From Desulfatitalea sp. (lineage in GTDB: Bacteria; Desulfobacterota; Desulfobacteria; Desulfobacterales; Desulfosarcinaceae): 16,209 nt of DNA. The position numbers and the translations under genes are program-made. Where the stretch lies: the NCBI GenBank assembly GCA_013041835.1, contig JABDRH010000143.1:1-16209 (forward strand), in the 5' to 3' direction. The notes under the pieces are model-generated. The model saw nothing but the letters and a program-made list of their open reading frames with translations, searched no databases and was not told the origin of the DNA. Below, one piece after another: positions 1,909-16,078 of this stretch. Each line of letters starts with the position of its first letter. The first letter of the stretch is position 1.

Positions 1909-2973
1909 CTATTTAGCTCCTTGAGAAAAATGGGTAGCTCGATGCCAGGTGGATGAAACGTTGTTGCCGTCGCTGAGATAGATCATGCCGTCTCCGCCCA
2001 CCGCGATAAATCCCGCCGAAGCCCCTTTCCGGGCAACCCGGTAAATCCAGCCATACGGGTTGGGGGGCTCAAAAGAGGGCGTTGACCACGTCCGCCCGTC
2101 GTCCGTGCTCACACGGATGGTCTCTTTTCCGGCGATGACAATGGTTCCCGACCGGTCGGAAGCAACGCTGAAAAGCTGCGTCCTTGGCGCACCCGTTTTG
2201 ACCTCTTGCCAGGTTTGCCCTCCATCCAGCGTTCTGACCCCATGGCCATCGATCCCGGCCGCCCATGCCCTTTCGGCATCCTCGGCGATCACGCGAAACA
2301 GATAGTTTCCGGCCTCGACACCACCGGTCTCCAGACTTTGCCGAAAATAACCCGCCTGATGCCGCCAATGCGCACCGCCGTCCCGGGTGTGGTAGGTAAA
2401 CCCATACTCGCCCACGGCCCAGCCATTGCGTGAATCCGAAAACGAGACGGATTTTAGAATATAATCCTGGTCTTGAAATTGGATCTGCCAGGTCTCGCCT
2501 CCGTTTGCCGTGTGCAAGATGTGCGTGCGCTCCGTTACGATCCAGCCTTCGGCCGGTGAGACAAAAAAGACGTCCATCAGATAAAATGAGGGTACCGGAC
2601 ACGCTTGTTTGCGCCAGGTCATGCCCGCGTCGCCGGTATGCAGAATGGTCCCGGTATCTCCCACGGCCCAGCCGTTTTGACCGTCCACGAAAAACACACT
2701 TAACAGCGTCACATCCGTACCGGTATCCTGGGAAACCCAGCTTTTTCCGCCGTCGGTGGTATGATACATGACCCCCCATCTGCCACAGACCCAGCCGGTC
2801 TCGGCGCTCGGAAAGCTGACCCCGAACAGGTCATCAAATATGGCCGGCGCCGCGGGCGCGCCCATGGGCATCAAAAGCAAGAAGATCACGCTGCAAAGCC
2901 AAATTCGTCGACGCGAGACAGTGCGCGGCCGTTTTCCAGCACCCGGCGCGGCATAAAAAGTTGTGGTTATCAT
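1909..2973 (-). CDS. YCF48-like (BNR-repeat) secreted beta-propeller protein
   Basis: A 354-residue protein with an R-rich N-terminus (RPRTVSRRR), a hydrophobic stretch at about residues 24-36 and APAA near residues 39-42, which together look like a Sec signal peptide. The mature part has about seven repeats of 40-50 residues, each with the pattern GWxVGxxGxxxHTxDGGxxW. Good copies are GWAVGDTGTILHTGDAGMTW and GWAVGEYGFTYHTRDGGAHW. This is the seven-bladed propeller of the Ycf48/HCF136 family. In bacteria such proteins accompany DUF1302, DUF1329 and MMPL genes and are thought to be periplasmic assembly or scaffold partners, not photosystem factors. Start choice: the frame is open to 3027, but the ATG at 2973 has GAGGAA seven bases upstream and places the signal peptide properly. 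Confidence 0.88.
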   Translation of the reverse strand: MITTTFYAAPGAGKRPRTVSRRRIWLCSVIFLLLMPMGAPAAPAIFDDLFGVSFPSAETGWVCGRWGVMYHTTDGGKSWVSQDTGTDVTLLSVFFVDGQNGWAVGDTGTILHTGDAGMTWRKQACPVPSFYLMDVFFVSPAEGWIVTERTHILHTANGGETWQIQFQDQDYILKSVSFSDSRNGWAVGEYGFTYHTRDGGAHWRHQAGYFRQSLETGGVEAGNYLFRVIAEDAERAWAAGIDGHGVRTLDGGQTWQEVKTGAPRTQLFSVASDRSGTIVIAGKETIRVSTDDGRTWSTPSFEPPNPYGWIYRVARKGASAGFIAVGGDGMIYLSDGNNVSSTWHRATHFSQGAK

Positions 2974-2992
2974 CAATGTTCCTCTTCTATTT

Positions 2993-3115
2993 CTAGTCCG
3001 TCCATGGTCTTTGGTACAGTAGTACAAGACCGGTGTACAGCATACACATAGCCAAAATGAATTCGTTGATTTCCGGTCTGGGGAAGTAAATATTCAAATG
3101 ACGCATCTCCATCAT
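2993..3115 (-). CDS. Small single-span membrane protein, 40 residues, hypothetical
   Basis: An open frame of 40 codons starts one base after the stop of the HXXEE gene (TAATATG arrangement) and ends 19 bases before the YCF48-like start, so it exactly fills the gap between two co-directional genes. The product begins MMEMRHLNIYFPRPEINEF, continues with the hydrophobic run ILAMCMLYTGLVLLY and ends QRPWTD. That is one predicted membrane helix with a short charged tail. Three ATGs (3115, 3112, 3106) are possible starts. No strong ribosome site is seen, so translation probably depends on coupling to the upstream stop. I do not recognise a family. The tight packing and membrane character in a membrane-transport operon are the evidence that it is real. 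The alternative is a chance frame in a 140-base gap. Confidence 0.5.
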   Translation of the reverse strand: MMEMRHLNIYFPRPEINEFILAMCMLYTGLVLLYQRPWTD

Positions 3116-3894: not shown

Positions 3895-5343
3895 CTATTT
3901 TCCCATTTTCTCAATATTTGAGAAACTGAAATCATCACGAGTGAGCCATGGTGCGGGCAGTGGGGGCCCGGATGCCATATAGCCCGTTTGAGGGGTTTGA
4001 AAGTTCCAGTTCGTACTCATAAAGCCGCCGATCAAGCCCATTTCGGGATCCTGAAAAGGATAGAACATCTGCCCACGGAATAGCCGGCCTTTTTGATCAT
4101 AGTTCATACTCGCATACAAAAAAAAGGTTTCTTTATCAAAGTAAAGAAGCGTCTTCCCATATACATATGAAGTGTCCTGCTGAATCAATTCAATTTCATA
4201 GATGGGTCGTCTCTCCATTCGAACGTTTTTGATTTCCAAGTTGCTTCGTTGGATATACTCTTTTCCATCAGTTGTGTACCAAGGCACCAGGTATTCCCTA
4301 TCCGCAAGTATTTTATATTCATACGGGAATAATGTGGGAGACAATACCCGCCTGAATCCACCGGCATCATCAAAAATAACATTTTGCCCCGCAGCGGTGT
4401 CTTGCGTATCGGTCCCCGTCATTTTTCTGATTCTTCTTATCGCGCCCGAATACATATATACATCCGTGGGATCGATTCCGATTTTTGCCACTGATAGCGA
4501 AACGCTTCCATACATGTCGCGCGAGCCCATGGAAGTGCCGGCACCAAGATAAAATTCATTCCGTTTTTTTGCCCTTTCGTCATAAAACGGCGTCGGCGCG
4601 TCCTTTAGACGACCTGATAATTGGAGAGAATACGACACGCCATACCCACCGTAGATATTCTTGAAATTTCTATCATAATTTTGAGTATCGGTAATCCCAA
4701 CCGACGCATCCCAAAGCAGAGGGGTATAAATTTTATTGTAAACGATTTGCATCGCCTTGATTCTTTCAGAACCCGAAGGTCTTGGGAATGGCATTCCAGA
4801 TATATAGGTGTCCGCATCGAAGTACCCCTGCGCGTCCTGTTTGGCTTTCCCCATGTTCTGTGAAGTCGCCTTTGAAAATGGCAATGGCCAATACCGTTGC
4901 TGGGTTGGAACCACTTCGAACTCTGAAACGCACGCCCCTAGAGGTACCGCTCCAGGCTTGAAGAAATTTTCGTAAAAGAAAGGGAACATCAACTCTTTGA
5001 GTCCCGGGTATTTCTGTTTGTCCTGATGCGTGTATTTGCCGGGCTTGATCTCAGGTGCGATCTTTCCGACCACATCTGGCGCCTTGAATCCCACGGCTTC
5101 CGCCCAATTTGCCTTCATGGTCGGAATGTCATAGGAGTATTTGGCATACACCTCGGGGGGGGTGAGTTGTTTTGTCCAGTATGTCTTCAGCACCGGTCTA
5201 GGATCATCCAAAATGGTTTTCTGTTTTTGATACTCTTCCCAATTGACCATGTATTTCTCGGCGCCAATGGCAGCCGGCACCATGGCAAGCGTTATGATCC
5301 AAAAAGCGACTATTTGTACATACTTTATATTATCCCGCTTCAT
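3895..5343 (-). CDS. DUF1329-domain periplasmic protein (LolA/LolB-like fold family)
   Basis: A 482-residue protein beginning MKRDNIKYVQ, with a hydrophobic signal sequence ending near AAIGA (about residue 28), after which the mature chain starts EKYMVNWEEYQK. The body shows features usual for DUF1329: many aromatic residues, the phrases YEYKILADREYLVPWY and ERRPIYEIELI, and a C-terminal segment on cross-bridging strands (DKETFFLYASMNYDQKGRL) as in lipoprotein-carrier folds. DUF1329 genes are almost always next to DUF1302 genes, as here. Known: members are periplasmic or outer-membrane-associated. Inferred: a carrier that passes a hydrophobic molecule between the barrel and the transporter. 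Start choice: the frame is open to 5412, but GGAGG lies five bases before the ATG at 5343, and this start puts the signal peptide at the N-terminus. Confidence 0.88.
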   Translation of the reverse strand: MKRDNIKYVQIVAFWIITLAMVPAAIGAEKYMVNWEEYQKQKTILDDPRPVLKTYWTKQLTPPEVYAKYSYDIPTMKANWAEAVGFKAPDVVGKIAPEIKPGKYTHQDKQKYPGLKELMFPFFYENFFKPGAVPLGACVSEFEVVPTQQRYWPLPFSKATSQNMGKAKQDAQGYFDADTYISGMPFPRPSGSERIKAMQIVYNKIYTPLLWDASVGITDTQNYDRNFKNIYGGYGVSYSLQLSGRLKDAPTPFYDERAKKRNEFYLGAGTSMGSRDMYGSVSLSVAKIGIDPTDVYMYSGAIRRIRKMTGTDTQDTAAGQNVIFDDAGGFRRVLSPTLFPYEYKILADREYLVPWYTTDGKEYIQRSNLEIKNVRMERRPIYEIELIQQDTSYVYGKTLLYFDKETFFLYASMNYDQKGRLFRGQMFYPFQDPEMGLIGGFMSTNWNFQTPQTGYMASGPPLPAPWLTRDDFSFSNIEKMGK

Positions 5344-5430
5344 ACTATCCTCCATTTCATGTTCGGTGCTGTCAAATTTAGATGCTTGAACGCCAATTCG
5401 TCTTGAATCCAACTGTATTTACAATACAGA

Positions 5431-6936
5431 TCAGTTGATTTTATACTGGACCTTGAACGCAATGGAATCCTTACGATCATAAATACCGGCTTTTGAATCA
5501 AAAATCTGACCGGATAAAATATATGACCATTTCTTGCTATTTGAATATGAAAGACTTCCAGTATAAGTATCCGCTTCTGCAGTCCATAGGCGAAACCAGG
5601 CTACTGACGGAGTGATACGCCCGTTCCAATATTTGGATACTATCTGAAAGGTCGTCGTATGGTTATCCCTTTCAACCGGACCTTCCGTAGTCGTGATTGT
5701 GTCACCTGAAGGGCCGTCTATGTGCGTAATGCTTCGCAGATAATACATTGTCGTAAGTCGAATCAAATTGGACGGATTTAACCAGCGAATCGGAAAGCCA
5801 AACTCCAAGGAGGCGGCCACCTTTATATCATCATATTTTCCAAACGCAACATCTTGAGGAAGGAAACCCACGGTGTACTCGCTATCCCATCCGTATGACG
5901 CCTCAACACGCATCATCGGGGAGATCATTCCGCCAATTCTCGGGACGAAACCAAGTTCCGTCGCGACCATTCCGCCTATCATCTTGCGAATGGGAAAAAA
6001 GGCTGCCTGGTTGGCATGAACAAGTGTTGGTGTGCCAGGCGTGAAAGTGGCGAACCCGGCGGTATAGGTTAACGGTAGAGAATCTCTGCCATAAAGAAAG
6101 TTGAGGCTCGTAACCGTGTCACCGATCAGGGCCTGTACCCTTGCCCCAATGGTTCTTGGGTCCGACCATTGCTCGGGTTTATCAAGACGAAGATTTCTTG
6201 TTCCAGAGATTCCCAGCGGCGGTATTTCAAGGTAGCCGGCCCAGATGCCGCCCTTGGCGTTGCCAAACTCCACAGAACGGGAGTAAATGTCATTATCAAC
6301 ATTCGGGTCATATACGAGCTGTAAACTGGCATTCGAAAGCCAGTTGTTACTGAAAGAAAACCCGTAATCATACCTTGCCATCCATGTCGGAACTTTCGTT
6401 GTCTCAAGCTCGAGAGCGGAAGGATTCCTTTGTGCATCCGTCGGGTTTATCTGATCCAACACCCTTACTCCCAGCAACTCACCCCACGACACAATCTGCT
6501 TGCCGACCCGAATCCGGCTATTGCCCGGGGTCCATGTCACATGAATTTCTCTCAAGATTTGCCAATACTCATCATCAAATGCCAAATTATCGGACTTGTC
6601 GAACTGTCTGCGTTTCCACGTGTCGTCGTCGTTGTTGAGCGGATAGGCCAGGTCACCTGTCAGGGTCACCATGCCGTAAAGTGCAAAATCATCCGTCGGG
6701 CTGAAATCTCCTTCCATGACAACACTCGTCATTGCCTGATTGATACCTTCAAAAGTGTCGTACTCGTCGTAAAAGCCATACTGTACGTGTTGGGATATCA
6801 GGCCGTAGAGGTTGAGAGGCCTTTCAAAAATTGAAAACCTTGCCGCGTCCGAAGAACGCACCGTCATCGTAATAATACATAAAAAACATGACACCAGCGC
6901 AAACCACCATCTTAGAATACCCATTCCCGCGCCCAT
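5431..6936 (-). CDS. DUF1302-family outer-membrane beta-barrel protein
   Basis: A 501-residue protein with a signal peptide (hydrophobic residues about 8-26, likely cut after SDAA, residue 32). The mature chain opens FSIFERPLNLYGLISQHVQYGF, interrupted here only by the family's usual strand pattern. It contains the DUF1302 hallmark around RIRVGKQIVSWGELLG followed by DQINPTDAQRNPSALE. Alternating polar and aromatic residues and a final strand ending FKVQYKIN are as expected for an outer-membrane barrel. Known of the family: it co-occurs with DUF1329 and with MMPL and YCF48-like genes near catabolic clusters for hydrophobic compounds. Inferred: entry or exit channel for the substrate. The ribosome site is GAGAGG six bases before the ATG at 6936. 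The DUF1329 gene starts 87 bases after its stop. Confidence 0.9.
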   Translation of the reverse strand: MGAGMGILRWWFALVSCFLCIITMTVRSSDAARFSIFERPLNLYGLISQHVQYGFYDEYDTFEGINQAMTSVVMEGDFSPTDDFALYGMVTLTGDLAYPLNNDDDTWKRRQFDKSDNLAFDDEYWQILREIHVTWTPGNSRIRVGKQIVSWGELLGVRVLDQINPTDAQRNPSALELETTKVPTWMARYDYGFSFSNNWLSNASLQLVYDPNVDNDIYSRSVEFGNAKGGIWAGYLEIPPLGISGTRNLRLDKPEQWSDPRTIGARVQALIGDTVTSLNFLYGRDSLPLTYTAGFATFTPGTPTLVHANQAAFFPIRKMIGGMVATELGFVPRIGGMISPMMRVEASYGWDSEYTVGFLPQDVAFGKYDDIKVAASLEFGFPIRWLNPSNLIRLTTMYYLRSITHIDGPSGDTITTTEGPVERDNHTTTFQIVSKYWNGRITPSVAWFRLWTAEADTYTGSLSYSNSKKWSYILSGQIFDSKAGIYDRKDSIAFKVQYKIN

Positions 6937-10337: not shown

Positions 10338-11288
10338 CTATTTGTATTGCCTGGGCTCCTGGGGCAGACCGATCATGTCGCGCGCCTGCGAGGGTGTCGC
10401 AATGGGTCGCCCGAGCAGTTTTGCGATATCCACCGCTTTTTGCACCAGCTCGGCATTGCTTTCAGCCAGTCTGCCTTTTTCGATGTAGTAATTGTCTTCC
10501 ATGCCGACCCGCACGTGGAGCCCCAAGGAGATCGCCATGGCCAGCAGGGGCCATTGCGACACGCCGACCCCGAGCACGCTGACCACGGATTGTTCGGGTA
10601 TGTATTCGAGCATGGTGCTCAGGTGATACATTGTCGCGTAACTGCCACCGCCGCCGACGCCGCATACAATCTGTATCCAATACGGGGGCTTGAGCAATCC
10701 TTTGTCCATGAGGTTGCTAACCATGGCGAAATTGGCCGTATCGTAAACCTCGATCTCGGGGACCACGCCGTTTTCGTGCATCAGCTTCATGCTCATTTCG
10801 GCTTCGGCGTGGGAAATCCCGAAGACTTGGTTGATGTGCACGTCTTCATCGCGGCCGAAAAGCGGCGGTTTGCGGGCCTTATACGTCATCAGCAGCGGCC
10901 AGGACGCCAGATCGATGGACTGGATTTCCGGTTTTGCAAAGACCGAGGCCACCTTTTGTTCGATCGTCATGGTGGCGCCGCCGCCGCCGGTATTGTTGAT
11001 GATGATATCCGGACACTTTTCACGGATGAGCGCGTTGACTTCGCGGTATTCTTCTGGAGAATGGGACATTTGAGCGGGATTGTCCGCTTTTCGCCGGTGA
11101 ACATGAACAAGGCTCGCCCCGGCCTGATAGGCCTCATAGGTTGACTGCGCTTGTTCCTGGGGCGTTTCGGGCAGATTCGGATTGATCTCTTTGCCCTGAT
11201 TACCGCCGGTAATGGCCACCGAAACAATCAGGGGTGGAAGCGTTGACACATTCAGCGTTCGCCGGGTTAGATTTTGATATGAAAACAT
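10338..11288 (-). CDS. Beta-keto acid cleavage enzyme (BKACE, DUF849)
   Basis: A 316-residue TIM-barrel enzyme of the BKACE family, whose founding member (Kce, lysine fermentation) condenses a beta-keto acid with acetyl-CoA and cleaves it to acetoacetate and a new acyl-CoA. Seen: N-terminal IVSVAITGGNQGKEINPNLP with the segment PETPEEQA-like after it, metal-binding histidines H62 and H64 in VHVH, the NTGGGG loop near 99-104, VVPEIEVYDTAN at about 175-186 (family E-x-E/D motif), VCGVGGGG near 208-215, and VRVGMEDN at 259-266, giving R260, E264 and D265. These fit the zinc ligands and catalytic Arg and Asp of Kce. Odd: the usual HxHVRD is HVHRRK here, so the Asp after the histidines is missing or shifted. 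The ribosome site is AAAGGA about nine bases before the ATG. It probably removes a two-carbon ketone unit from the ring-opened product. Confidence 0.9.
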   Translation of the reverse strand: MFSYQNLTRRTLNVSTLPPLIVSVAITGGNQGKEINPNLPETPQEQAQSTYEAYQAGASLVHVHRRKADNPAQMSHSPEEYREVNALIREKCPDIIINNTGGGGATMTIEQKVASVFAKPEIQSIDLASWPLLMTYKARKPPLFGRDEDVHINQVFGISHAEAEMSMKLMHENGVVPEIEVYDTANFAMVSNLMDKGLLKPPYWIQIVCGVGGGGSYATMYHLSTMLEYIPEQSVVSVLGVGVSQWPLLAMAISLGLHVRVGMEDNYYIEKGRLAESNAELVQKAVDIAKLLGRPIATPSQARDMIGLPQEPRQYK

Positions 11289-11346: not shown

Positions 11347-12240
11347 CTATGGTTCTTCGCCCCTGCCTTGTCTGCTCATGTTCTCCGCCTCATCAATCCA
11401 TGTCTTTTCATCGGTCCCGCCCTTTTTGGTGTTCTTGGCATCGGCGCCGATGGCCCCGACCACCATGCACCCCAACGTTTCATGGGCAAGTGAGTTGCGC
11501 AGGTCTGTTTCGAATGCCGTGCGCCACTGCTGCATCAAAAGAGAATGGGTCAGTTGACGCTGCCAGCGGTCCTTGGACATGAAAATCGTTTCAGCCAATT
11601 CCCATGCCCTTTCCAAGAGCTTTTCCTTGGGGACGATCTCTCCGATGACGCCCCAGTCAAGGGCCTGTTCGGCTGTAATGACCTGCCCGGTCAATTGAAT
11701 GTAGCGAGACCGGTTGGGGCCCAGCAGTTTTCGCCAGATCGTGTCGCAGCCGTCACCGGGGACGATGTTCAAGCCTGGATAGTGTAGTTGGTAGAAGGTG
11801 GTGTTGGGTGTGGCGATGACGATATCGGACAGCAGCACGTGCTCGGGATGAACGATGATCGGCCCGTTGATGGCGGAAATGACCGGTATGTCGATGTCTA
11901 GGATGGCCCGGACTTCCGAATACTGCCTTTTGTACATTACCTGATAGCCTTTGTACCAGTCGTAAGGCGTGTTGTATCCGTGTTGCGCCCAGTTTTCGGC
12001 GTCTATGGCGCCATTGAAGGCGTTGCCGGTCCCCGTGACGATGAGGCATTCGTTTTCCCAGTCATTATTGATGTTATGATATAAGTCAACGATAGCGCTA
12101 TGGGCATCGATGGTCCACTGGAACGGCTCTCCATTTTTGTGAAACGTAAGTTCCAGAATGCCATCTTTTCTTTTTAGTTTGAAAGTGTCTTTATACTTCT
12201 CGGAATAATCTTTCAGGTGCGCCCTATAGATTTCAGGCAT
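11347..12240 (-). CDS. Crotonase-fold hydrolase resembling 6-oxocamphor hydrolase (retro-Claisen beta-diketone hydrolase)
   Basis: A 297-residue crotonase-superfamily protein. Compared from memory with Rhodococcus 6-oxocamphor hydrolase (OCH, 257 residues), it keeps the same motif order: YSEKY near residue 12, W42 (OCH W40), H131 in VHPEH (H122), H153 in QLHYPG (H145), D163 in VPGDG (D154) and E254 in AHETLG (E244). These are the five residues implicated in OCH catalysis. OCH hydrolyses a C-C bond of a cyclic 1,3-diketone without CoA or oxygen, giving a keto acid. The present protein is therefore more likely a ring-opening beta-diketone hydrolase than an enoyl-CoA hydratase. A roughly 40-residue charged C-terminal tail is extra. 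The alternative is a CoA-thioester ring hydrolase of the steroid-degradation type. It is second in the catabolic operon. GGAGG lies eight bases before the ATG at 12240. Confidence 0.82.
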   Translation of the reverse strand: MPEIYRAHLKDYSEKYKDTFKLKRKDGILELTFHKNGEPFQWTIDAHSAIVDLYHNINNDWENECLIVTGTGNAFNGAIDAENWAQHGYNTPYDWYKGYQVMYKRQYSEVRAILDIDIPVISAINGPIIVHPEHVLLSDIVIATPNTTFYQLHYPGLNIVPGDGCDTIWRKLLGPNRSRYIQLTGQVITAEQALDWGVIGEIVPKEKLLERAWELAETIFMSKDRWQRQLTHSLLMQQWRTAFETDLRNSLAHETLGCMVVGAIGADAKNTKKGGTDEKTWIDEAENMSRQGRGEEP

Positions 12241-12299: not shown

Positions 12300-12953
12300 T
12301 TAACCTTTTCTATTCAGTCTTTCCATGGCGAACCGATACCAATTGTAAACTTCCACCACGGTGTGCTCCCGGGCGGCTTCAAATTGACGATCTGGAATGG
12401 CGATGGGGTAGTATACCCCCCAGATTCCATCAAAGCCATCTTTTGTGGTGCGCAGTTCATGCAGTACACCGCCGACATAAGTCTCTGCGTCTCTAAGATA
12501 GAACTTTGCCACCATGCGCAATGGATAATCCGGAGTCGCTGCCTGAACCTTTAGGAATTCATCGCCGAATTTTACAACCAGCTTCGTCGGTAGACCTGCG
12601 TTGTACTCAATGACTTGCAGATTGCTGGGATCCGTGCCGATCAGGAAGTGATCAGGTGATGCCGCAAGCATCGTGGGGGTATCCTTGACCATCTCCCAGA
12701 ATTGATCGAGAAACTCATCGGCGCTCATGCCGGTGGCCTGGAACTTGACGTTTGTAGACTTGAGCTTGCCGTTGGACTCCGCCACGGTCTTTTTCAACAG
12801 TTCGTCCGACTTTGACAACTGCTCTTCCGTGAATATTTCAGTGGCGGATTTGCCGGACTTTAGCAACCTGAGTGCAATGCGAGATTGTTTCAGCTCAATT
12901 TGCTCAATGGCTGCCTCATCGTACATTTTATCACCATACACTGCCTTAAACAT
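12300..12953 (-). CDS. Uncharacterised 217-residue protein, first gene of the catabolic operon
   Basis: I do not recognise a family. The product has no signal peptide and no membrane segment, so it should be cytoplasmic. The N-terminal third is helical and charged (EQIELKQSRIALRLLKSGKS, then FTEEQLSKSDELLKKTV). The rest looks alpha/beta with several aromatic residues and the segments DHFLIGTDPSNLQVIEYNAG and GFDGIWGVYYPIAIPDRQFE. No nucleotide- or cofactor-binding signature is visible. The start at 12953 (MFKAVYG) has AAGGAGG about seven bases upstream. A longer frame to 12989 would swallow that site and is less likely. It is 59 bases ahead of the hydrolase gene and is the promoter-proximal gene. 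That position suggests an enzyme or binding protein acting early on the substrate, but no function can be assigned. Confidence 0.75.
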   Translation of the reverse strand: MFKAVYGDKMYDEAAIEQIELKQSRIALRLLKSGKSATEIFTEEQLSKSDELLKKTVAESNGKLKSTNVKFQATGMSADEFLDQFWEMVKDTPTMLAASPDHFLIGTDPSNLQVIEYNAGLPTKLVVKFGDEFLKVQAATPDYPLRMVAKFYLRDAETYVGGVLHELRTTKDGFDGIWGVYYPIAIPDRQFEAAREHTVVEVYNWYRFAMERLNRKG

Positions 12954-13542: not shown

Positions 13543-13546
13543 TTTA

Positions 13547-13724
13547 GGAATCACAATTTAATAAGTTGCCCTTTATCCATCACGGCTTCGGGCTACCTTG
13601 GCCCGATCTTCGGTCTCAAAATCCTCAAAATAGCTCGCTAATCCTGCGGTTTTGAGCCCTCAGATCGAACCAAGCTAACCCAAATCCACGCGCCTAAATG
13701 GGCAACTTATTAAATTGCGATTCC
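13547..13724. mobile_element. 178-bp MITE-like palindromic element with 25-bp terminal inverted repeats
   Basis: The ends GGAATCACAATTTAATAAGT... and ...ACTTATTAAATTGCGATTCC are inverted copies over 25 bases with one mismatch. The symmetry continues: the two 87-base halves align without any gap at about 61 of 87 positions around the four-base centre CTCG. The poorest stretch is bases 26-46 of each half. The element is flanked on both sides by TTA (13544-13546 and 13725-13727), which could be a three-base target duplication. It has no open frame of note. Size, terminal repeats and lack of coding capacity fit a miniature inverted-repeat transposable element or a dispersed palindromic repeat. 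No transposase is present in the window to identify the family. Confidence 0.65.
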
Positions 13725-13770
13725 TTAATTTGTTGTTGATGTCATGTTGATTTTCCAAGTAGCTCTATCG

Positions 13771-13927: not shown

Positions 13928-16078
13928 ATGAATATAGATAACAGCTTTTCCGGTGCCGGATCAATAGAATCAAAGAACGCCTCGTCGTTTACGAAAATTC
14001 TTTTGAAATTAACGGCAAAATTCTTTGAAACGTCTTCAAGCAAATTCAGCAATGAAGTCGAAAATGAGCTAAAAATGATCGGAGACCATTTGGGGATTGA
14101 GTCTATGAGCATCGGCGTATTTTCAGATGACGAGACAGAGTTCTCAATCACCTATTCCTGGCTTGCTTCCGGCTCTCCGGTGGGCCGGCAGATTTCCTGC
14201 AAAAAGATCCCGTGGATCATGAATAAGATCATTAAAAAAGAGGCGGTTGTTTTGACCCGGCTTCAAGAAGATCTGCCTGAAGAGGCCTCGCGGGAAAAAG
14301 AATACCTACAGGCGCAAAACATAAAATCGGCTGTAATATTGCCGTTGATCGCGGGTGAATCTGTTCTAGGAGTGCTTGTTTTGGTTGCCTTTCGAAACGA
14401 GCGATACTGGTCCTATAAAGAGATTCAACAATTTCAAGAAATTGGAGAGGTTTTCGCATACGCGATGGAACGTCAAAAATCATTTGGCGATATTGATGAT
14501 CTTTTAAAATTTGAGCAGCTTGTATCGGAAATATCCGCTACATATATAAATCTGCCGGTCAGGAAAATAGAAAATGCAATCGAATACGGACTTTCACGAA
14601 TAGGTAAATTGCTGCAAGCTGACAGATGTGCCCTTTGGCAATTCTCGGAAGAAGAGGGTGTTTTTCGTCCCACATTAATATGGCAAAAAGAAGATATCAA
14701 ATCTGATCTGAATCGAGTCGTAAATACAAACATTGCTTCAGGAAGGCTCCAGTACTTATTTGACAAGTGGCTGAACGGGGAGAGTATTAAAACGAAAACA
14801 CCTGATGATCTACCCGAAGAAGCATCATTGTTCAAGGAGCTTGAGCTTGAAATTCATGCCAAATCTCACCTTTCAGTCCCTTTCTCGGTTGGCGGGACGA
14901 TTTTAGGGGCGATTACCATCGTGACGACCCGCTCTTACAGAGTCTGGCCCGACAAACTGACCAACAGACTCAGGCTGCTTGGGGAGATCTTCGGAAATGC
15001 GCTGATGCGAAAGCGAAAAGAGCAGGAATTGATCAATGCATACCAAGAAATAAAACGGTTAAAAACTGAAATTGAGGATGACTGCATATACCTTCAAGAA
15101 GAGATCAAGATGACTCACAATTTCAGCGAAATTATCGGTCAAAGTCGCCAATTGAAAAAGGTTCTATTCGATATAGAGCAAGTCGCCCCGACCGATACCA
15201 CTGTTCTTGTCCTGGGTGAGACCGGCACGGGAAAGGAGCTCATCTCGCGGGCCATTCATAATACGAGCGGGCGCAAGGATCGCCCCTTGATCAAATTAAA
15301 TTGCGCCACCCTTCCTGCCAACCTCATCGAAAACGAGTTGTTCGGTCATGAAAAAGGCGCTTTTACCGACGCCTCCGCTAGTCATAAAGGACGATTTGAG
15401 CTTGCCAATGGCACCACCATTTTCTTGGATGAGATCGGTGAACTGCCCTTGGCGTTACAGGCCAAACTGCTAAGGGTGCTGGAGGATGGTCAATTTGAAC
15501 GTTTGGGAGGGCGCACAACGATAAAAACGGATGCTCGCGTCATCGCAGCCACCAACCAGGACCTTGAAGAAAAAGCCAAGGATGGCAGATTCCGCCGCGA
15601 CCTCTGGTATCGATTAAGCCCTTTCGTAATCAAATTACCGCCCCTTCGGGAACGTAAAGAAGATATTCCAATGCTGGTCAACTGGTTTGTGAAGATATAT
15701 TGTACAAAGTTGGGAAAACCGATCCAATCCTTTTCCGCCCGATCGATTAAAAAGCTCCAAGGATATGATTGGCCCGGTAATATCAGGGAGCTTGAACATG
15801 TCATTGAACGCGCCGTCATAAAATCCCGAGGTTCCACATTAAGCCTGTCGGATCGCTTTGATACTTCTTTAAAAAGTATCAAAGAAAACCGTTCAAACAA
15901 AACGCTCTCAGAGATTGAACGTGATTATATCATTCAAATACTTGCGCAAACCAAAGGGCGCGTTCACGGCCCAAATGGAGCCGCAAAAATATTAGGACTT
16001 AATCCGTCAACCCTGCGTTTTCGAATGAAGCGACTTGGAATTGAAAAACAAACCACCTATTCGAGAAAGAGCGCCTAA
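13928..16078 (+). CDS. Sigma-54-dependent transcriptional activator with two GAF domains
   Basis: A 716-residue enhancer-binding protein. Layout: GAF-like domain at about 25-180, a second GAF-like domain at about 195-360, a coiled-coil linker (about 363-395), an AAA+ domain at about 400-635 and a Fis-type helix-turn-helix at about 660-705. Seen: Walker A GETGTGKE (430-437), GAFTDA (477-482) where the sigma-54 contact loop is usually GAFTGA, Walker B IFLDEIG (498-504), AATN (540-543) and [10 protein letters not shown] (554-563). There is no phosphoacceptor receiver domain, so control is probably by a small ligand bound to the GAF domains. The gene is divergent from the catabolic operon and is its likely activator. 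The ATG at 13928 follows a run of eight G instead of a normal ribosome site, so the start is slightly uncertain. Confidence 0.92.

Follow-up and report, generated by a model that had tools for sequence, protein, structure and literature searches.

What reaction is carried out by the crotonase-fold protein encoded at positions 11347-12240 of a 16,209-nucleotide stretch of Desulfatitalea sp. DNA (assembly GCA_013041835.1, contig JABDRH010000143.1; the whole stretch is hereafter called the window)? The original prediction held that this protein carries the catalytic set of 6-oxocamphor hydrolase (OCH), and that a homology-only label of enoyl-CoA hydratase would miss its chemistry, the CoA-independent hydrolysis of a C-C bond in a cyclic 1,3-diketone. 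A frame of 297 residues fills the minus strand of this interval without an inner stop, the plus-strand frame has stops, and the residues named at the outset, W42, H131, H153, D163 and E254, are all present. Judged from sequence comparison, the product is probably a C-C bond-breaking hydrolase of ring-shaped diketones, in the reaction class of OCH and the Anabaena beta-diketone hydrolase (ABDH). With somewhat less assurance, we take such a CoA-independent hydrolase within a retro-Claisen ring-opening pathway as the best explanation of the locus as a whole.

Pfam places the protein in PF00378/ECH_1 (78.7 bits, above the cut-off) and 59 hydratase-type NCBIfam models match it, the 25 best of the 59 all far under their cut-offs; an enoyl-CoA hydratase/isomerase label is, as foreseen, all that the two databases would say. 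Searching all PDB chains with phmmer (best 60 of 124 matches) returned OCH at the top (1o8u, E 5.6e-53; 1szo, the H122A mutant, 1.4e-51), a likeness well beyond chance, and ABDH at 3.8e-42 (2j5g), whereas the best protein named hydratase reached 1.3e-14, a value almost 40 powers of ten poorer than that for OCH. Within those 60 matches OCH and ABDH alone stand out as solved OCH-type crotonase-fold structures; 3q1t is possibly another, as argued from structure in a portion of PMC3584854. The alignment and a predicted model both put the protein with OCH (37-38% identity) and ABDH (32%) ahead of every listed hydratase. Among the 120 homologues listed of 270 found, three reach 60-62% identity. The OCH-like gene was not found in any of 10 same-genus genomes sampled (E 1e-30; two less than 75% complete).

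We took the catalytic residues of OCH to be W40, H122, H145, D154 and E244, with the reference chain covering residues 8-252 and its numbering fixed by 1szo. In phmmer and in all three MAFFT alignments W42, H131, D163 and E254 share columns with W40, H122, D154 and E244, and for these four the proposed equivalence stands. Counted over 68 rows (drawing on set A1, 64 hand-chosen members of the 120 listed homologues), the tryptophan is kept in 59, H131, E133 and D163 in all 68 and E254 in 64, the ABDH chain stopping before this position; a histidine lies 9 or 10 residues before the aspartate in every row (10 in 22, 9 in 46). A further residue, H47, was missing from the original set and aligns in two MAFFT alignments with H43 of ABDH, whose catalytic residues are H43, D153, H144 and E243 according to a portion of PMC3584854, where the glutamate pair of the enoyl-CoA hydratase 1ey3 is also given, as E144 and E164. 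When two hydratase-like proteins from the Desulfatitalea genome are aligned with the 297-aa protein, E133 occupies the first glutamate position while the second holds H153 or Y154, depending on the alignment. The pair, which the original prediction had named as evidence that would count against it, is therefore absent.

A second, midpoint-rooted tree (57 rows, chosen from set A1 and the loci described below, plus the two hydratase-like proteins) gathers the OCH-family rows into one group with support of 100/100, the root falling between them and the hydratase-like proteins. The nearest kin of the 297-aa protein are P0002-P0004 and L009, a locus on a 34-kb contig of a Lachnospiraceae metagenome-assembled genome. 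Beyond these two source genomes, no relative of at least 42% identity was found in samples of 395 genomes of the phylum, 389 of the class, 392 of the order of L009 and 398 of its phylum; the searches used E 1e-25 or 1e-30 on overlapping samples drawn from larger groups, and absence there is not absence in nature. The Desulfatitalea genome has a second OCH-like gene, 33% identical, on contig C26 (L037, 3606-9608), in a cluster with two SCPx-type thiolases, a ChsH2/DUF35-type protein and a zinc-type reductase.

Because of the operon, which the original prediction left unused, a more specific pathway can be proposed. Five minus-strand genes follow one another at gaps of 59, 58, 28 and 13 bases, encoding a 217-aa protein, the OCH-like protein, a BKACE-family protein, a thiolase and an acyl-CoA ligase (Table 1). 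The first four each have a homologue in L009, with identities of 43%, 60%, 72% and 74%, respectively; a benzoate-CoA-ligase-type ligase was searched for on the 34-kb contig of L009 only. L009 further encodes a TRAP transporter, an SDR, an SCP2 protein and three proteins related to one another that have no Pfam family above the cut-off. Plasmid records matching the OCH-like, BKACE and thiolase genes numbered 582, 579 and 564, every one below 60% identity. We inspected 11 OCH-like loci (the window, L009, L010, L011, L037, L039, L040, L041, L049, L050 and L057), leaving aside OCH-like matches with short or unexamined surroundings such as L015-L019. The gene directly downstream of the OCH-like gene encodes BKACE in the window, in L009 and in L050, and in L057 a single gene lies between the two; BKACE was not found in the other seven, and with inspected stretches of 4.7 to 19 kb some of these absences may reflect truncation. 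The chance of meeting BKACE in a random 20-kb stretch is about 1.4%, estimated from the Desulfatitalea genome alone (three BKACE genes in 4.3 Mb). Since L050 and L057 branch elsewhere in the clade of the window protein, the pairing has been kept, or has arisen again, over large distances. The order in L057 (OCH-like gene, butyrate kinase over its cut-off, BKACE, a PTA_PTB acyltransferase over the Pfam cut-off with NCBIfam phosphate butyryltransferase models under theirs, thiolase) reads as fermentation of the products.

Two side observations concern these loci. Members of a family of about 250 aa without a Pfam match over the cut-off, about 29-53% identical among the four, occur in the neighbourhood of OCH-like genes of two unrelated organisms (L009, 2637-3377, 9161-9898 and 17541-18326; L037, 4999-5760), and from a look at their sequences we suspect an AhpD/carboxymuconolactone-decarboxylase-like fold. 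On a Pseudonocardia plasmid (L011, 7156-12205) a cyclase-family gene, an OCH-like gene and xanthine-dehydrogenase-type subunits come in that order.

The 217-aa protein at the head of the run starts at ATG 12953, in agreement with its Lachnospiraceae homologue, although a longer frame from GTG 12989 is listed. Its Pfam scan up to E 10 gave Cut8 alone (E 0.18) and no PF18089, its contig was not among the matches of a PF18089 search of the genome (E 1), and a profile search reported six proteins, itself included. A Bet v1/START-type fold is predicted (one good model run of five). Foldseek ranked phloretin hydrolase 1-5 and PhlG 11 against this model; VIA scores of 11.8 for PhlG and 11.7 for phloretin hydrolase tie with the 11.2 and 11.1 of other proteins of the fold. 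The zinc ligands of PhlG and phloretin hydrolase are presumably a His, a Glu and an HxxxE motif. H102, E116, H197 and E201 are invariant in the seven rows of the family alignment, and H102, H197 and E201, but not E116, are in register with the invariant H112, H240 and E244 of the PF18089 domains of the same genome. An identification as PhlG itself was rejected for lack of a PF18089 match. Four open reading frames elsewhere in the genome do match DAPG_hydrolase PF18089 (L031-L034, on contigs C377, C348, C130 and C495), two of which look like tandem domain duplications; a further relative of the 217-aa protein, P0128, is fused to an ABM (PF03992) domain.

From predicted fold, residues, gene order and conservation we infer the reaction, the order of steps and the substrate as follows. 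A cyclic 1,3-diketone would be held in a pocket of W42, H47, H131 and H153, where H153 and D163, with E254 nearby, would activate water for attack on one carbonyl of the enolisable substrate; retro-Claisen cleavage without CoA, carried over from OCH and ABDH, would then open the ring to an oxo-carboxylic acid. The beta-keto acid so formed would undergo exchange with acetyl-CoA on BKACE, after which the thiolase would cleave the acyl-CoA and the ligase would activate the freed carboxylate; the 217-aa protein probably acts first, in acyl side chain removal or ring binding, and the DUF1302 and DUF1329 proteins may import an apolar substrate. On balance we favour such a retro-Claisen/BKACE cassette, and the five-gene run, partly common to a gut bacterium, looks like an undescribed pathway for diketone ring breakdown. 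A plain cyclic 1,3-dione opens to a 5-oxo acid, while BKACE substrates are 3-oxo acids. That 5-oxo acid is not a BKACE-type substrate; a 1,3,5-oxygenated ring would resolve the mismatch, yielding 3,5-dioxohexanoate directly, or via a 3-hydroxy form and one oxidation by a dehydrogenase. The PhlG-like fold next door fits a phloroglucinol reading, since such enzymes cleave acyl groups off phloroglucinol rings, and a phloroglucinol-type ring is our tentative suggestion for the substrate. More speculative still is an anaerobic route, not yet described and spread by horizontal transfer, by which acylated phloroglucinol-type compounds or cyclic beta-triketones would be broken down, with a PhlG-fold deacylase, an OCH-type ring opener and an exit through BKACE and the SCPx-type thiolase. 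If it were true, an OCH-type crotonase would replace the cyclase-family dihydrophloroglucinol cyclohydrolase, the deacylase family would have no sequence signature, and several anaerobes would use the wider clade, together with BKACE, for ring opening. The host itself may be anaerobic, to judge by the cassette's relatives in Lachnospiraceae and in butyrate formers.

Several results qualify this proposal or weigh against it. The fifth equivalence of the original prediction holds in half of the alignments: H153 shares a column with OCH H145 in phmmer and one MAFFT alignment and lies one column off in the other two, because the His-to-Asp distance is 10 residues in the 297-aa protein and 9 in OCH. 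The protein falls in a group of 27 (support 100/99) that excludes OCH and ABDH, in agreement with the first tree, where spacing 10 occurs in 21/24 rows of its clade and in 1/42 rows of the OCH/ABDH clade; the later additions L049 and L057 show a spacing of 11, and the wider clade of the second tree spans 9 to 11. ABDH has a phenylalanine at the OCH W40 position, so the chemistry can do without a tryptophan there. The BKACE scores 194 of 430 bits against the triacetate acetoacetate-lyase (TAL) model NF053538, far under its cut-off, and by our reading has Asn30 at the position of Kce Glu14 instead of the Trp of CsTAL; its identification as a TAL was rejected on both grounds. No reductase or dehydrogenase was found among the ten window proteins scanned with Pfam.

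The strongest competing explanation, to which we give a minor but appreciable chance, is a beta-diketone hydrolase whose substrate is a dione derived from a terpene or an alicycle, of the camphor-like or cyclohexane-1,3-dione type, with BKACE and thiolase serving later or unrelated beta-keto acids. OCH presumably acts on such a dione, and the seven of 11 loci in which BKACE was not found are in keeping with it, as is the DUF1302/DUF1329 pair, a counterpart of which serves monoterpene use in Castellaniella defragrans according to a portion of PMC6394551. It sits less easily with BKACE adjacent to or one gene from the OCH-like gene in four loci, with the PhlG/START-fold gene in the set common to L009, and with the ten scanned window proteins, among which no terpene-specific gene was found. 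In the pathways for steroids and cyclohexane, certain crotonases hydrolyse a C-C bond of CoA-thioester or other non-cyclic diketones. A reading in which the protein catalyses such a reaction on an OCH-like site inherited as a scaffold would agree with the thiolase and CoA ligase in the run and with a clade apart from the characterised enzymes; we consider it unlikely, given that the OCH-family H131, E133 and D163 are kept in 68/68 rows and that no acyl-CoA-specific feature turned up, though no test was aimed at one. A plain enoyl-CoA hydratase/isomerase, as automatic annotation has it from PF00378 and the NCBIfam matches, is very improbable in view of the far worse E-values to hydratases and the single hydratase glutamate.

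Table 1. Features of the window
Feature	Position	Strand	Remarks
YCF48-like protein	1909..3027	minus	DUF1302/DUF1329/YCF48 set recurs on contig C348 of the same genome
DUF1329 LolA-like protein	3895..5412	minus	family of AmeB and PP_0766
DUF1302 protein	5431..6936	minus	family of AmeA and PP_0765
Benzoate-CoA-ligase-family acyl-CoA ligase, 523 aa	7441..9012	minus	TIGR02262, 658 bits, over cut-off
Thiolase_C_1 (SCPx-type) thiolase, 427 aa	9026..10309	minus	74% identity to L009 copy
BKACE	10338..11288	minus	PF05853, 281 bits (cut-off 24.8)
OCH/ABDH-type crotonase-fold protein, probable C-C hydrolase, 297 aa	11347..12240	minus	W42, H47, H131, E133, H153, D163, E254
217-aa protein, predicted Bet v1/START-type fold	12300..12953	minus	no Pfam family over cut-off
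GAF-GAF-sigma54 activator, 716 aa, candidate regulator	13928..16078	plus, divergent	

Beginning 504 bases past the ligase, DUF1302, DUF1329, HXXEE and YCF48-like proteins follow in that order. In other bacteria, DUF1302/DUF1329 pairs have been linked to the use of monoterpenes and of Tween 20 in portions of PMC6394551 and PMC10866462. A second DUF1302/DUF1329/MMPL/YCF48 set adjoins a PF18089 protein on contig C348 (L032, 363-8229), its DUF1302, DUF1329 and YCF48 members being 50-59% identical to those of the window, and the GAF-sigma54 activator is 38% identical over 444 aa to an activator adjoining the PF18089 gene of contig C377. Between the gene run and this divergent regulator lies a 186-bp repeat resembling a miniature inverted-repeat transposable element (13543-13728), whose inverted ends of 32 nt are 91% complementary; other contigs of the genome carry five copies of nearly full length at 96-98% identity (48 match rows, many partial and some being one copy counted on both strands). 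Tetranucleotide correlations are 0.88-0.94 with six contigs of the same genome, 0.83 with the same-order L049 and 0.15-0.73 with six more distant stretches; these values and the repeat copies elsewhere in the assembly make it unlikely that the contig is a contaminant. A sigma-54 promoter pattern matched four times in the window (4.9 expected), never just upstream of the gene run, and sigma-70 and terminator scans of the window gave sites no more numerous than in shuffles.

OCH-type enzymes, BKACE and PhlG are already known kinds; our search of one open-access library gave no report tying OCH-like enzymes to BKACE, anaerobes or anaerobic ring cleavage. A clade repeatedly linked to BKACE acquires a concrete, testable role, and an enoyl-CoA hydratase label can mask ring-cleaving enzymes. 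Compared with OCH (1o8u, 1szo), the 297-aa protein belongs to another clade, has a His-Asp spacing of 10 instead of 9 and a longer C-terminus, and is encoded in a run with BKACE and a PhlG/START-fold protein; ABDH (Alr4455; 2j5g, 2j5s), at 32% identity, differs by its Phe in place of W42. The 217-aa protein resembles PhlG and phloretin hydrolase (3hwp, 5xey; PF18089) in predicted fold and in the His and HxxxE in register, but is shorter and has no PF18089 match. The Clostridium scatologenes phloroglucinol route (PGR-DPGC-TfD-TAL), as described in a portion of PMC10470551, proceeds through a cyclase-family cyclohydrolase and a dehydrogenase to a BKACE-family lyase and then a thiolase. The Pfam scan of ten window proteins gave no candidate for PGR, TfD, an SDR or a cyclase; three PF04199 (cyclase) open reading frames lie elsewhere in the genome, the neighbourhoods of two giving nothing informative on DPGC. 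Like that route, the proposed one would combine hydrolytic retro-Claisen ring opening with a BKACE-family lyase and a thiolase; unlike it, the window BKACE differs at the marker residue, and the proposed opener is crotonase-fold where that of C. scatologenes is, in the same portion of PMC10470551, a Mn-dependent cyclase-family enzyme, so that the phloroglucinol-type reading, if true, would represent a second, unrelated enzyme solution for anaerobic polyphenol-type ring breakdown.
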